Below, piece by piece: positions 57,403 through 61,815 of a stretch of 64,000 nucleotides of DNA (within the stretch, counting starts at the first letter, position 1; every line of letters starts with the position of its first letter). The position numbers and the translations under genes were made by a program. The notes under the pieces were generated by a model, which was not told the DNA's origin, did not search any database, and was given only the letters and a program-made list of their open reading frames with translations. Source of the stretch: Gorillibacterium timonense (GTDB lineage Bacteria; Bacillota; Bacilli; Paenibacillales; NBRC-103111); assembly GCF_001457415.1 (NCBI RefSeq), contig NZ_LN881724.1, forward strand, positions 310,001 to 374,000. The letters run 5' to 3'.

Positions 57403-57421
57403 ACGAGGAGTGTGGAACGGC

Positions 57422-58927
57422 ATGAGCAAAAAATCAAGGCCCACCAAAGGGAAGGATTCCGCGAGGAAACATAGAGAGCAACCCTCATCCGTACGAGATG
57501 AGCGGGAATATCCGGTTGCGAAGAATGAAGAGTATGAAGCGGAGATCATCGGCTTGACGCATGATGGCGAAGGTGTGGGGCGGGTCAATGGGTTCACTCT
57601 CTTTGTGGCAGGCGCGCTGCCGGGTGAACGGGCTAGGGTAAAGGTCTTGAAGGTGAAAAAGCAATATGGCTACGCCAAATTGCTGAACGTGCTGGAAGCG
57701 AGCCCCGACCGGATTGCAGCGCCTTGCCCGATCTTCGACCAATGCGGCGGCTGCCAGCTTCAGCATCTCAGCTATGAAGCACAGCTGCGCCATAAGCGGC
57801 AGATCGTCGTGGATGCGCTGGAGAGAATCGGCAAGCTCCCGGTGGCGGGAGTGGGAGCGGATGATACGTCCGCTGCTGGCGCCATCCCCGTTCATCCGGT
57901 GATCGGCATGCCGAATCCGTGGAACTATCGCAACAAAGCTCAGGTTCCATTGGGGGAAGTGGAAGGCGGCCTGGTCGGCGGCTTCTACGCCCAAGGCAGC
58001 CACAGGATCATTGACATGGATGCCTGCATGATCCAGCATGAGGCGAACGACGATGTCATTAGCAAGGTCAAGGAGATCGCCAGCAGTCTGGGGATCAGCG
58101 CGTACAAGGAGGAAACCGGGGAAGGACTGCTTCGCCATGTGGTGGCGAAGATCGGGTTCCGTACAGGTGAGATCATGGTTGTCCTGGTCGTGAACGGAGA
58201 CAAGCTTCCTCAGCAGGAAGCCTTTGTCGATTCGATTCGTGAGGCCATTCCCGGCGTGAAGAGCATTTGCATGAACCGCAACACCCGTCAGACTAACGTT
58301 ATCTTTGGCGATCGGACGGATGTGCTCTGGGGCAGTGAGACGATCTACGACTATATCGGCGACATCAAGTTCGCGATATCGGCTCGATCGTTCTATCAGG
58401 TCAACCCCGTGCAGACGGAGGTGCTCTATCGCACCGCCCTCGATTATGCCGCGCTGACCGGCGGCGAGACCGTCATCGATGCCTACTGCGGCATCGGGAC
58501 GATCTCACTCTTCCTCGCACAGCATGCGGGCCGCGTCTACGGCGTCGAGATCGTCGCCGAAGCCATCGCCGACGCCCGCCGCAACGCGGCGCTAAACGGC
58601 CTTGCTAACGTCGACTTCGCCGTCGGCAAGGCCGAAGAGATCATCCCGACGTGGCGTGCCGACGGCATCACGCCGGACGTCATCGTCGTCGACCCACCCC
58701 GCAAGGGCTGCGAGCCGGAGCTGCTCGACACGATGCTCGCCATGCGGCCGGAGCGCATCGTGTACGTGTCCTGCAATCCCGCGACCTTGGCACGGGATTT
58801 GCGAGTGCTAGTGGATGGGGGCTACAGAGTAGAAGAAGTCACGCCAGTAGATATGTTTCCACATACGGTACATGTGGAGTCGGTCACTCAGCTAGTTAAA
58901 AATGAAACAGGTCGCGGAAATGCTTGA
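57422..58927 (+). CDS. rlmD: 23S rRNA (uracil-C5)-methyltransferase
   Basis: 501 residues from ATG 57422, GAGGAGTG ten bases upstream. A basic start is followed by a TRAM RNA-binding domain (about 35-95: [20 protein letters not shown]). Iron-sulphur ligands [15 protein letters not shown] (about 104-118). SAM-binding [14 protein letters not shown] (about 355) and the catalytic region [13 protein letters not shown] (about 425) with [13 protein letters not shown] and its nucleophile Cys (about 448). It methylates uracil in 23S rRNA (U1939 and, in Bacillus RlmCD, U747). Its 3' end borders the phage-like element. Confidence 0.95.
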
Positions 58928-59063: not shown

Positions 59064-59096
59064 GACGCCCGGAGTTATTCAGCCGAGCGTCTTTTA
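59064..59096. terminator. Terminator between rlmD and the integrase
   Basis: GACGCCCGG/CCGAGCGTC stem (one mismatch) with a 10-base loop and TTTT on the plus strand. It overlaps the last codons of the integrase gene, so it was probably placed there with the element. Confidence 0.75.
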
Positions 59097-60316
59097 TCGT
59101 TCCGTTCTTTCTTCGGAGCAAACAGGGATTCAAATTTGTCCGCCGCTGCCTGGTCTGCAGAGCGGAGAGCATGGCCGTAGATGTTCATGGTCGTGGTGAT
59201 GTTGCCGTGGCCAAGCCGTTCGGAGATGATCTTAGCATGAACGCCCTGGTTGATGAGTAGCGTTGCGGAGGTATGACGCAGATCGTGGAAGCGGATGTAC
59301 CGGAAGCCGTTCTTCTGGATGAAGTGCCGGAACCAGAGATAAGGTCGCTCTTGATGGAAGGGAGTGCCGTCAGGGTGAGAGAAGACGAAGTTCCATTCGC
59401 GTCCTTCTCGATCCCGCCCATTCCAACCGGCTCCAATGGTATCACGCTCTTTTACTCGGTAAGCATAGTACTCGCGGAGCTCCTCCAGCACGGAAGCGGG
59501 CAAGGCAACCTTCCGCCGGGAATTCTTGGTCTTGGGTTCTTTGACGATGATCTCGCCCTTGAGAGCTTGTACAAGTGACTGGCAGACGTCGATTGTTCCG
59601 GCTTTCCAGTCCACATGCTTCCATTCCAGCCCAAGCAGTTCGCCTCGGCGCAGGCCCGTTGTAAGCGCCAACGTGATCATCATCCGCCAGTGGTAGAGCT
59701 CCCGCTGCAGGGCTGTGAGGAGCTGCCGAACCTCTTGCTCGTCATAGGGCAGGATATCCTTGCTGGTCACCTTGGGCTTCTGGACGGATCCCGCAGGATT
59801 CGTCTTGATGACGCGCCACTCGACCGCCCGGGAGAAGATATTCTTGAGGATGCGGTGATTCATCTGGATTGTCCCCGAAGCCAGCCCGCCGCTCTTCCGA
59901 TCACCGCGGCCGCCGTCCTGCCCAAGCTTCTCCAGGAAGTCCACGATGTGTAGCGGCTTGATGTCCTCCAGTTTCATGTGGCCGAAGGTGGGCAAGATCC
60001 GTTTCTTCAGATGAGACTCATAGGCGATCCGCGTTTTATGCTCCAGTTGCTTCACAGAGTATTTGCTTCGCCATTCCTCCACGAAGGCTGCGAATGTCAT
60101 CTTCTGCGGCGCAATGAACTCTCCGGCCAGCACTTCCTCCCGAAACTTGGCATATTCCATGTCCAGGTGATCCTGCAGCCGCTTCTTCGTCTTGAGTAGC
60201 GCCTCGTCAGTTATGGTGATCGTCTTTGTTCGCCGACCGTATTTGCCGTTCGCCTGAACGCCGGTGTAAACAGTGAAGAACCAGCTATTCGGACTGCGTT
60301 GCTGGATATTTGCCAT
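59075..60316 (-). CDS. int: Tyrosine-type phage integrase
   Basis: 413 residues, AGAGGGTG six bases before the ATG. N-terminal arm-binding AP2-like domain (about 1-60) and SAM-like core-binding domain (about 70-170) precede the catalytic domain. Catalytic residues: Arg in TTGLRRGELLGL (about 225), His-x-x-Arg in FHDLRHTSATLL (about 345), His in RLGHGNITTTMN (about 370) and Tyr in NIYGHAL (about 381). It integrates and, with an excisionase, excises the element. Confidence 0.95.
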   Translation of the reverse strand: MANIQQRSPNSWFFTVYTGVQANGKYGRRTKTITITDEALLKTKKRLQDHLDMEYAKFREEVLAGEFIAPQKMTFAAFVEEWRSKYSVKQLEHKTRIAYESHLKKRILPTFGHMKLEDIKPLHIVDFLEKLGQDGGRGDRKSGGLASGTIQMNHRILKNIFSRAVEWRVIKTNPAGSVQKPKVTSKDILPYDEQEVRQLLTALQRELYHWRMMITLALTTGLRRGELLGLEWKHVDWKAGTIDVCQSLVQALKGEIIVKEPKTKNSRRKVALPASVLEELREYYAYRVKERDTIGAGWNGRDREGREWNFVFSHPDGTPFHQERPYLWFRHFIQKNGFRYIRFHDLRHTSATLLINQGVHAKIISERLGHGNITTTMNIYGHALRSADQAAADKFESLFAPKKERNDKRRSAE

Positions 60317-60332
60317 TTTATCACCCTCTCGA

Positions 60333-60593
60333 TTAGTGTTCCTTTAACCATCTTTCCAAGAATTCGCGGGCTTCTCGGGCGGGAAAGTACCACTTCCCCC
60401 CGATCTTATGTTTTTGAAAATCAGGGTGAAAGAAAAATGTGCTTTGAATAGTGCCCCAACTCATGCAGGTCAGTTTCGATAATTGCTTAGAATCCCAAAA
60501 TACATAGTCTGAGTCTAGCTGCTTTAATATGTCGGAGATTTTCTCTTTAACAAACTCATTTACTTGATGTTGGTCTATATGAATTTCAATCAT
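60333..60593 (-). CDS. DUF771-like small phage protein, possible excisionase
   Basis: 86 residues, co-directional with and 16 bases upstream of the integrase gene; it overlaps the repressor stop (ATGA). It has an N-terminal acidic helix and a C-terminal helix-turn-helix-like part: DSKQLSKLTCMSWGTIQ, then FFHPDFQKHKIGGKWYFPAREAREFLERWL (quoted in part). This resembles DUF771 proteins of Gram-positive phages. Location makes a directionality-factor role attractive, but unproven. Confidence 0.6.
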   Translation of the reverse strand: MIEIHIDQHQVNEFVKEKISDILKQLDSDYVFWDSKQLSKLTCMSWGTIQSTFFFHPDFQKHKIGGKWYFPAREAREFLERWLKEH

Positions 60594-61117
60594 TTGTCGG
60601 TTTCCTTATCATGATCAGGAAATAGAGCAGTAAGGACATTCAGTGCTATCTGGCGTTCCTCATAAGAAAGCTCATGACTGGAGAAATAAACCTTTTCCCT
60701 TCGTTGTAGAAGAAATTGCAAGTCGAAAAAACGTCTGGCGAGTTCATCTGGAGTTAATGCAATTGTTACCTTTGCTCCGTTTTTGTCGGTTATTTGTTCG
60801 TGTGCAAGCTCTTCAAACACATTTTTTACTACAGGGCTGTTACTTCGATTGGGACGGCCAAAGAATGCATCTACATCTTCTTGGGTTGTATTGCTCCAAT
60901 ATCCGGCCTTGACCATTAAATCGGAATACATGACGCCTAGCGCCGGAGCGAGTTTTTTTAGAATATCGGGGGAAGGGATTATTTCGTTTCCAGAACGTGG
61001 ATCTTTGCCCTTCTCGATGCTGCTTAAATAAGTATTGCTAACACCTGAAAGGCGTTCAATTTCCCGCAGACTACGTTTTCCTCTAATTTCTCGGATATAT
61101 TGACCAATATCGGTAAT
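60590..61117 (-). CDS. cI-like phage repressor, apparent ATT start codon
   Basis: 175 residues if read from ATT at 61117-61115. AGGGGG (61131-61126) lies exactly eight bases upstream of this codon. In this frame the protein starts TDIGQYIREIRGKRSLREIE, after which SGVSNTYLSSIEKGKDPRSG completes a typical XRE HTH, normally preceded by a Met at this very position. The only in-frame ATG (60931) falls after the DNA-binding domain and has no Shine-Dalgarno, so an ATG-only reading would lose it. There is no in-frame ATG, GTG or TTG near the beginning. The C-terminal half (about 90-175) is unrecognised. Divergent from the Cro-like gene. Confidence 0.75.
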   Translation of the reverse strand: MTDIGQYIREIRGKRSLREIERLSGVSNTYLSSIEKGKDPRSGNEIIPSPDILKKLAPALGVMYSDLMVKAGYWSNTTQEDVDAFFGRPNRSNSPVVKNVFEELAHEQITDKNGAKVTIALTPDELARRFFDLQFLLQRREKVYFSSHELSYEERQIALNVLTALFPDHDKETDK

Positions 61118-61153
61118 GATAATTACCCCCTATGAATTAATTGGCAATCATGG

Positions 61154-61182
61154 TTGACATTTATGATAACATGCTATATTAT
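61154..61182 (+). promoter_or_regulatory. Promoter of the Cro-like gene in the lysogeny switch
   Basis: TTGACA at 61154-61159, 17-base spacer, TATTAT at 61177-61182 (TATATT overlaps at 61175). Operators are likely here and in the 30 bases to the left. Confidence 0.65.
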
Positions 61183-61204
61183 GATTAGCAAGGAGGTGCT
61201 ACTC

Positions 61205-61414
61205 GTGGTTAGCAACAATTTAAGATTGGTAAGAAAAGAAATCGGCATGTCCATATCAGAGCTTGCTCGTCGAGCGAATTCAAGTAGACAAACCATTACC
61301 AACATTGAATTGCGTGGTCAGGTTCCAAATGGATTATTAATGATCGCCATCTGCGATGTATTGAAAAAACAGCCCAAGGAAATTTTTTTTGATTCTAATG
61401 CAAACCATGGTTAG
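61205..61414 (+). CDS. Cro-like HTH regulator
   Basis: 69 residues from GTG 61205, AAGGAGG eight bases upstream. Compact XRE HTH: NNLRLVRKEIGMSISELARRANSSRQTITNIE (parts: LRLVRKEIGMSISELARRA) with a C-terminal dimerisation-like helix PNGLLMIAICDVLKKQPKEIFF. Divergent from the repressor, so it likely plays the Cro role. Its first codons and its stop both lie in copies of TGGTTAGCAAC. Confidence 0.85.
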   Translation: MVSNNLRLVRKEIGMSISELARRANSSRQTITNIELRGQVPNGLLMIAICDVLKKQPKEIFFDSNANHG

Positions 61415-61491
61415 CAACTAGATATGATGACTTAGTTTGAAACCATCACACCGTGGTCACTAGTGGCAACAAGCAAAAGGAGGAAAGAGCA

Positions 61492-61815
61492 ATGACCGAT
61501 TTGGAGTATACGGCCGCCCAGCGGCGGCATGAGCTGGCAGTCAAGTTTTTCCCTGCAGGACTGATGCCGGATCAAATCAAACTGCTGGATGAAGTAGAGC
61601 AGCTTCTGATCCGCGCCTATCAAGCCGGCGAGAGTCAAGCTGTTGAAGTGCAGACCTGGAGCAATCAATCCGCATTTGGCTATGCGATTCTGGCTGCTGA
61701 GCGGACCGGACAAGCCCCGGCACAGATTCAGCAATTGGTGAAAGCCCTGCATACTATCTTTGATCGCGTTTCGCTGGAAGAGGCTGCAGCGCACTATCGG
61801 CGGTCACCTTATTAA
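61492..61815 (+). CDS. Small early phage protein, unknown function
   Basis: 107 residues from ATG 61492, AAAGGAGG upstream. Soluble, helical, acidic/amphipathic. No motif was recognised. First gene of the apparent early operon after the Cro-like gene. Confidence 0.75.
   Translation: MTDLEYTAAQRRHELAVKFFPAGLMPDQIKLLDEVEQLLIRAYQAGESQAVEVQTWSNQSAFGYAILAAERTGQAPAQIQQLVKALHTIFDRVSLEEAAAHYRRSPY

Follow-up and report, generated by a model that had tools for sequence, protein, structure and literature searches.

A candidate prophage repressor of Gorillibacterium timonense with a probable AUU start codon

Where does translation of a phage-type repressor begin when its reading frame offers no ATG, GTG or TTG ahead of the DNA-binding domain? 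The question is raised by a minus-strand gene in a 64,000-nucleotide stretch of the Gorillibacterium timonense genome (hereafter, the window). On that strand the frame leaves a TAG at 61132-61130, passes through GGG GTA ATT ATC and reaches an ATT at 61117-61115, followed by ACC GAT ATT GGT. The features concerned are the following.

60590..61117, minus strand: repressor-like coding sequence of the XRE/HTH_3 type, 175 aa, with proposed start ATT 61117 and stop TGA 60592-60590
61115..61117, minus strand: proposed AUU start codon, in the column common to the homologues' ATG/GTG/TTG and to the ATT of L003 and the ATC of L064
61126..61131, minus strand: Shine-Dalgarno (SD) sequence AGGGGG, 8 nt from the ATT (gap 61125-61118)
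61130..61132, minus strand: in-frame TAG overlapping the SD, which excludes a more-upstream start in the repressor frame

The list of open reading frames gives ATG 60931 as the earliest ATG, GTG or TTG in the repressor frame; with the ATT as codon 1 it is codon 63, and a start there would yield 113 aa. The repressor matches Pfam HTH_3 (PF01381) with 29.6 bits against a cut-off of 23, over residues 8-62 counted from the ATT (residues 12-66 on the translation begun at GGG 61129). This match lies entirely 5' of ATG 60931, and a protein begun there would thus be without the whole DNA-binding match. In an ungapped SD/anti-SD calculation, the window's SD (AGGGGGU) has an energy of -9.4 kcal/mol and an aligned spacing of 8 to the ATT. 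Two other isoleucine codons lie between the TAG and ATT 61117, namely ATC 61120 (SD spacing 5) and ATT 61123 (spacing 2). A first-pass annotation, made from the letters, had proposed ATT 61117 as the start, with AGGGGG exactly eight bases upstream and no canonical codon in frame nearby. Both coordinates and gap were borne out, as was the lack of a nearby ATG, GTG or TTG, the first such codon lying past the HTH. Its expectation that gene callers would miss the DNA-binding half agrees with the mechanical open reading frame, which begins at ATG 60931. Three other ideas about this start were rejected: a CTG at codon 17 falls within the HTH, a leader hairpin masking the start finds no counterpart in the window's unremarkable leader fold (z 0.37), and coupling to a small out-of-frame leader ORF was, by eye, inconsistent among relatives.

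By its sequence, the gene is classed as an XRE/Cro-CI-type HTH protein and a candidate repressor of a prophage-derived element, and it probably maintains the dormancy of a bacterial virus. Pfam reported HTH families only, with no C-terminal S24 peptidase of the kind found in LexA-like cleavable CI. The repressor's surroundings in the window include:

58859..58884, plus strand: att-like repeat of 26 bp, inside the 3' end of ORF 57410-58927, which by eye looks like an RNA methyltransferase gene
59075..60316, minus strand: tyrosine integrase (PF00589, 103.4 bits; phrog_1)
60333..60593, minus strand: small phrog_9848 protein of unknown function with weak HTH matches, next after the repressor

The att-like repeats, at 368859 and 382269 of contig C7, are identical at 25/26 positions and 13.4 kb apart, the second falling outside the window. 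Among ten further proteins of the element, a PHROGs scan recognised, with others, an excisionase, helicase loaders of the DnaD and DnaC types, a minor head C-terminus and a transcriptional regulator; three proteins matched nothing, and one HTH protein matched small terminases weakly. The att-like repeats, the integrase and the replication genes are traits of a temperate prophage. The minor-head C-terminal and weak small-terminase matches were the only signs of packaging, capsid or tail genes among the 14 element proteins scanned (4 + 10), a set that left out several of the element's small ORFs. The element is most likely a shortened prophage and probably a defective one, and given the near-lack of structural modules, the repressor may be under relaxed selection. 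The repressor's stop and the start of the phrog_9848 gene overlap as ATGA (60590-60593), and through translational coupling a weak repressor start could also depress the downstream product. Just past the right att-like repeat (window genome G000, C7:382708-385232) lies a CBASS-like pair of a SAVED-type effector and an oligonucleotide cyclase, and two large ORFs at 390233-394850 of G000 look McrBC-like by eye alone.

To judge the ATT by comparison, we turned to the start sites of its relatives in 93 distinct fetched loci, the window included; L170 and L171 were found later and stand outside the 93. The loci were chosen for their resemblance to the window, the grouping emerged post hoc, and the counts below carry no formal probability. 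Start codons were read in the fetched loci, which in one search were the best 30 of a longer list of places, while database matches comprising 3, 10, 1 and 11 records, all below 60% identity, lie outside the start reading. Overall, 87 of the 93 loci had an SD-supported ATG, GTG or TTG start. The SD spacings of these 87 were 4 (2 loci), 5 (1), 6 (15), 7 (18), 8 (36), 9 (8) and 11 (7), with a mode of 8 and 54/87 at 7 or 8. The window's ATT stands in the commonest start column, used by 42 of the 87; the remaining 45 start at columns -3 (19), 2 (10), -2 (6), 0 (6), -1 (2), -6 (1) and -7 (1). The ATT column is therefore the usual, though not invariant, start place in near relatives, and the occurrence of the ATT at SD spacing 8 appears to be more than chance would give. 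The first-pass annotation's choice of start is favoured by this column and by the isoleucine codons of two relatives described below.

Several relatives illustrate the column. In L062 (G411) it holds an ATG immediately behind an in-frame TGA, and in the later-found L170 (G946) a TTG, five codons downstream of an in-frame TAG; L171 has an ATG start. L041, from a Bacillus MAG whose intergenic DNA is common with the window, reads TTG GTG here, the GTG at the column and the TTG one codon earlier. Nine of the ten viral loci fetched with the divergent gene start at the ATT column, with ATG (8) or TTG (L168); in the tenth, L169, no such repressor was found. In a sister group (L032-L034, L059-L061, L063, L065), whose HTH shares 69-72% identity with that of L003, the start lies one codon further on, at an ATG or TTG and mostly behind a stronger SD. 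In the more distant, chromosomal paralogue group MGQPIPDFGKFLE, an isoleucine at the ATT column is internal and the start lies four codons upstream. An isoleucine at this column is thus tolerated for reasons of the protein as well, and the in-frame TAG prevents the window from using the paralogues' upstream start.

Six loci had no SD-supported canonical start: the window (L001), L003, L064, L017, L006 and L144. In L006 and L144, canonical codons are present but lack an SD. L017 (G067), a chromosomal paralogue whose sisters use TTG, GTG or ATG, has a CTG at column -3 behind a strong SD at spacing 8, possibly another non-canonical start. The window (L001 and its copy L096) is the sole tabulated locus without any ATG, GTG or TTG candidate.

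The other two loci carry isoleucine codons at the column. L003, from Paenibacillus validus, has the highest HTH identity to the window (63%) in a family search of 104 genomes and an order search of 392 genomes. Its start region reads AGGGGAGTGGAG ATC ATT TCA AAT ATA GGA, with ATC ATT positioned as in the window, and L043 (Paenibacillus validus NBRC 15382) has the same start region. L064 (G461), which like L062 came from a search of 394 genomes of another family, has GGAGG, 8 nt and then ATC, preceded by an AAA codon. The aligned SD spacing is 7 for the ATT of L003 and 8 for the ATC of L064; the ATC of L003 stands at 4. Each locus has a single canonical in-frame codon, a GTG three (L003) or five (L064) codons upstream, which overlaps the SD by one base and lacks an SD belonging to itself. 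Among the five loci with aligned intergenic DNA, the column thus holds ATT or ATC in three, GTG in L041 and ATG in L062. This suggests that the class of isoleucine codons recurs among relatives, with the exact codon not fixed, and the recurrence at one column turns one odd codon into a pattern.

A tree of the HTH (98 rows, 84 columns) groups the window, L064, L041 and L062 together (support 92/90) and puts L003 with the L032 type (support 87/83). Start labels on this poorly resolved tree require two changes as drawn, one of them forced by the starred branches, and the isoleucine starts of the window, L003 and L064 may still have a single origin. Over codons 2-75, all ten pairs of the window, L003, L041, L062 and L064 differ at 37-55 of 74 third positions and at 13-20 of 74 second positions. 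Third positions being the most variable, the repressor has been maintained by selection at the level of the protein.

How such relatives come to light depended on the query. Searched against the genome contigs and viral contigs, the single window protein gave no confirmed relative, and neither did the single L041 protein; alignments A1 and A2 as queries did yield confirmed relatives. Two further family searches at E 1e-23 had matches in 0/41 and 3/151 genomes and gave L170 and L171. The leader pattern TATCATNNNTGTCAACCATG, allowing one mismatch or none, occurred in 22/392 order genomes (exactly in G000 alone; 4 for the reversed control) and in 22 viral stretches. It was dropped as a finder of relatives: the window (L096) aside, none of the matched loci was among the repressor relatives. 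The window's start site, with any codon, had no match in viral contigs, no phage record resembled the window region, and the neighbouring gene 61492-61812 had no relative in phages or viral contigs.

Upstream of the repressor, we predicted a promoter, operator-like sites and a divergent gene.

61186..61191, minus strand: predicted -35-like TTGCTA of the repressor promoter, with a 17-bp spacer
61163..61168, minus strand: predicted -10-like TATCAT, extended by TGT and ending 45 nt before the ATT
61142..61159, no strand: operator-like palindrome inside the repressor leader, differing from TGNNAACCATGGTTNNCA at 1 position, at the same relative place in L041, L062 and L064
61197..61214, no strand: operator-like palindrome where the Cro-like gene starts, differing from TGNNAACCATGGTTNNCA at 3 positions
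61399..61416, no strand: operator-like palindrome where the Cro-like gene ends, matching TGNNAACCATGGTTNNCA in full
61205..61414, plus strand: Cro-like HTH gene, divergent from the repressor, with its start placed by eye at a GTG that follows AAGGAGG by 8 nt

A sigma-A-like match, TTGnnn and TGnTATCAT separated by 17 bp (18 in L003), occurs in the window, L003, L041, L062 and L064 and ends 37-52 nt ahead of the start codon; one extra, weaker promoter-like match is present nearer the start in each of the window and L064. Sites resembling the palindrome consensus TGNNAACCATGGTTNNCA, made in this analysis, are spaced 55 and 202 bp apart in the window; L041, L062 and L064 keep this arrangement, with spacings of 55 and 202-205 bp, and L003 has one weak match. 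In 6 kb, four palindromes with at most 4 mismatches were found against 2.07 expected from shuffled DNA. As this is only about twice the expectation, it is the conserved spacing rather than the number of sites that speaks for operators. The Cro-like gene apparently starts with GTG in the window, versus ATG in L003, L041 and L064; with the repressor's ATT, this would place a weaker start on both sides of the window's switch.

Taken together, these comparisons lead us to favour a genuine weak AUU start at 61117 for the XRE/Cro-CI-type repressor of this 13.4-kb, apparently defective prophage, a reading to which we assign a probability of roughly 70%. The ATT is probably a built-in low-output setting rather than a sequencing slip. 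A misread ATG, one base away from ATT, is hardly credible: L003 and L064 show the same codon class at the column in other assemblies, and the window's own assembly (5.26 Mb in 7 contigs) is 99.97% complete. No near-identical copy in which to re-read the codon was found, by a search that may omit very near records. Decay offers an unlikely but weightier account, in which a former ATG, GTG or TTG at the column was lost in a defective prophage, leaving no functional repressor. The element would suit this, with 13.4 kb between att-like repeats and one minor-head fragment among 14 scanned proteins, and relatives do carry those codons at the ATT column. Yet the frame is otherwise intact, the SD, the predicted promoter and the operator-like sites all persist, two other loci would have needed the same kind of loss, each to an isoleucine codon, and ATT is two changes away from the GTG of L041.

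The remaining doubts concern which codon is used. Initiation at the adjacent ATC 61120, or at both isoleucine codons, would be non-canonical either way; the ATC ATT pair does recur in L003, but the ATC's SD spacings of 5 in the window and 4 in L003 fall short of the modal 8 (54/87 at 7 or 8), and L062 has TGA and L064 AAA as the codon before the common column, which makes this version very unlikely. For L003 and L064 we also considered that translation truly starts at the upstream GTG, the isoleucine being internal as in the MGQPIPDFGKFLE paralogues and the likeness to the window coincidental, an idea compatible with the other readings. The distant chromosomal paralogues, with isoleucine at the column and a start four codons upstream, provide the precedent. 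Their upstream start, however, has a strong SD, mostly at 7-8 nt (CTG in L017), whereas the GTG of L003 and L064 has no SD of its own. Nor does either predicted 5' end fit a leaderless GTG, since the promoter match puts it upstream of the GTG and the weaker L064 match puts it after. For these two loci the GTG start is thus improbable, and the window's TAG closes that route to the window.

Isoleucine starts appear to be in use already in the same bacteria. The infC gene, which encodes IF3, appears to start with ATT in five of the seven genomes checked and with ATC in the other two, its start being placed by the conserved N-terminus and the SD; the codon is ATC in the window's own genome and ATT in those of L003 and L064. 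The first-pass annotation had treated AUU starts as a rarity known from infC in enterobacteria; the codon class holds, but not the restriction to enterobacteria, as 7/7 genomes here appear to use ATT or ATC. A second IF3 paralogue with an ATG start accompanies the ATT- or ATC-started infC in five of the seven genomes (G000, G086, G332, G411 and G461); that of G000 lies at C7:1389755-1389949 (L068; TIGR00168, 83 bits). In other bacteria, infC starts with ATT in E. coli and ATC in Streptomyces, with IF3 autoregulation (PMC5472188), and with AUA in S. aureus (PMC13009471). The repressor resembles infC in its near-cognate isoleucine codon behind an SD, in the very same genome, but infC encodes a self-regulating housekeeping translation factor, not a phage regulator.

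Other known genes resemble the window's in part. In S. aureus, ccpN (AUA) and cvfC1 (AUU) are Firmicute genes with a conserved non-canonical start, and CcpN is an HTH repressor whose role was shown in B. subtilis; AUU and AUA reporters reached about 10% of the AUG level in poor medium, and ccpN up to 30% in rich medium (PMC13009471). Both genes, however, are chromosomal with a strong extended SD, compared with the moderate SDs of L003 and L064, and their starts are backed by ribosome profiling, the window's by sequence comparison. Streptomyces sigR is similar in being a regulator kept low by an IF3-discriminated start, here a GTC repressed by IF3, which balances a two-protein switch (PMC5472188); it differs in its codon, in encoding a sigma factor with an anti-sigma partner, and in being unrelated to phages. 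Firmicute-type viral contigs (L160-L168) share the divergent HTH pair, and an N-terminus such as MSDIGKLL aligns with the window's ITDIGQYI, but their starts are ATG (8 loci) or TTG (L168). The window's gene probably belongs to a known kind, that of genes attenuated by a near-cognate start. Within the open-licence literature, titles and abstract openings gave no description of a phage repressor started with AUU or AUC.

Under our favoured reading of an AUU start, the predicted TTGCTA/TATCAT promoter would produce a leader of about 40 nt carrying an operator-like site, and the SD would dock ribosomes. AUU pairs imperfectly with the initiator tRNA, and IF3 discriminates against it; together, these would restrict the repressor to a small fraction of its AUG-level yield. 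By analogy with the genes above, low repressor output from the AUU is likely, and sensitivity of this start to IF3 would follow, as a hypothesis, from known biology. The operator-like site in its own leader and the weak start would then keep the repressor close to the switching threshold in its balance with the divergent Cro-like protein. Initiation at the ATT, its low yield, its dependence on IF3 and its effect on lysogeny are thus what we infer from this locus.

A broader proposal is that this prophage family places its lysogeny repressor under the infC-type AUU/AUC start control of its host, with output rising when IF3 is scarce relative to ribosomes. The lysogeny decision would then read the state of translation initiation, and codon changes at one column (ATG, GTG, TTG, AUU, AUC) would tune the switch in evolution; we regard this as unlikely. 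If the AUU start is real, annotation limited to ATG, GTG and TTG loses the DNA-binding half of such repressors, and prophage immunity genes can be misread as truncated. It would also provide a translational set-point for a phage lysogeny switch, possibly with an input from IF3.
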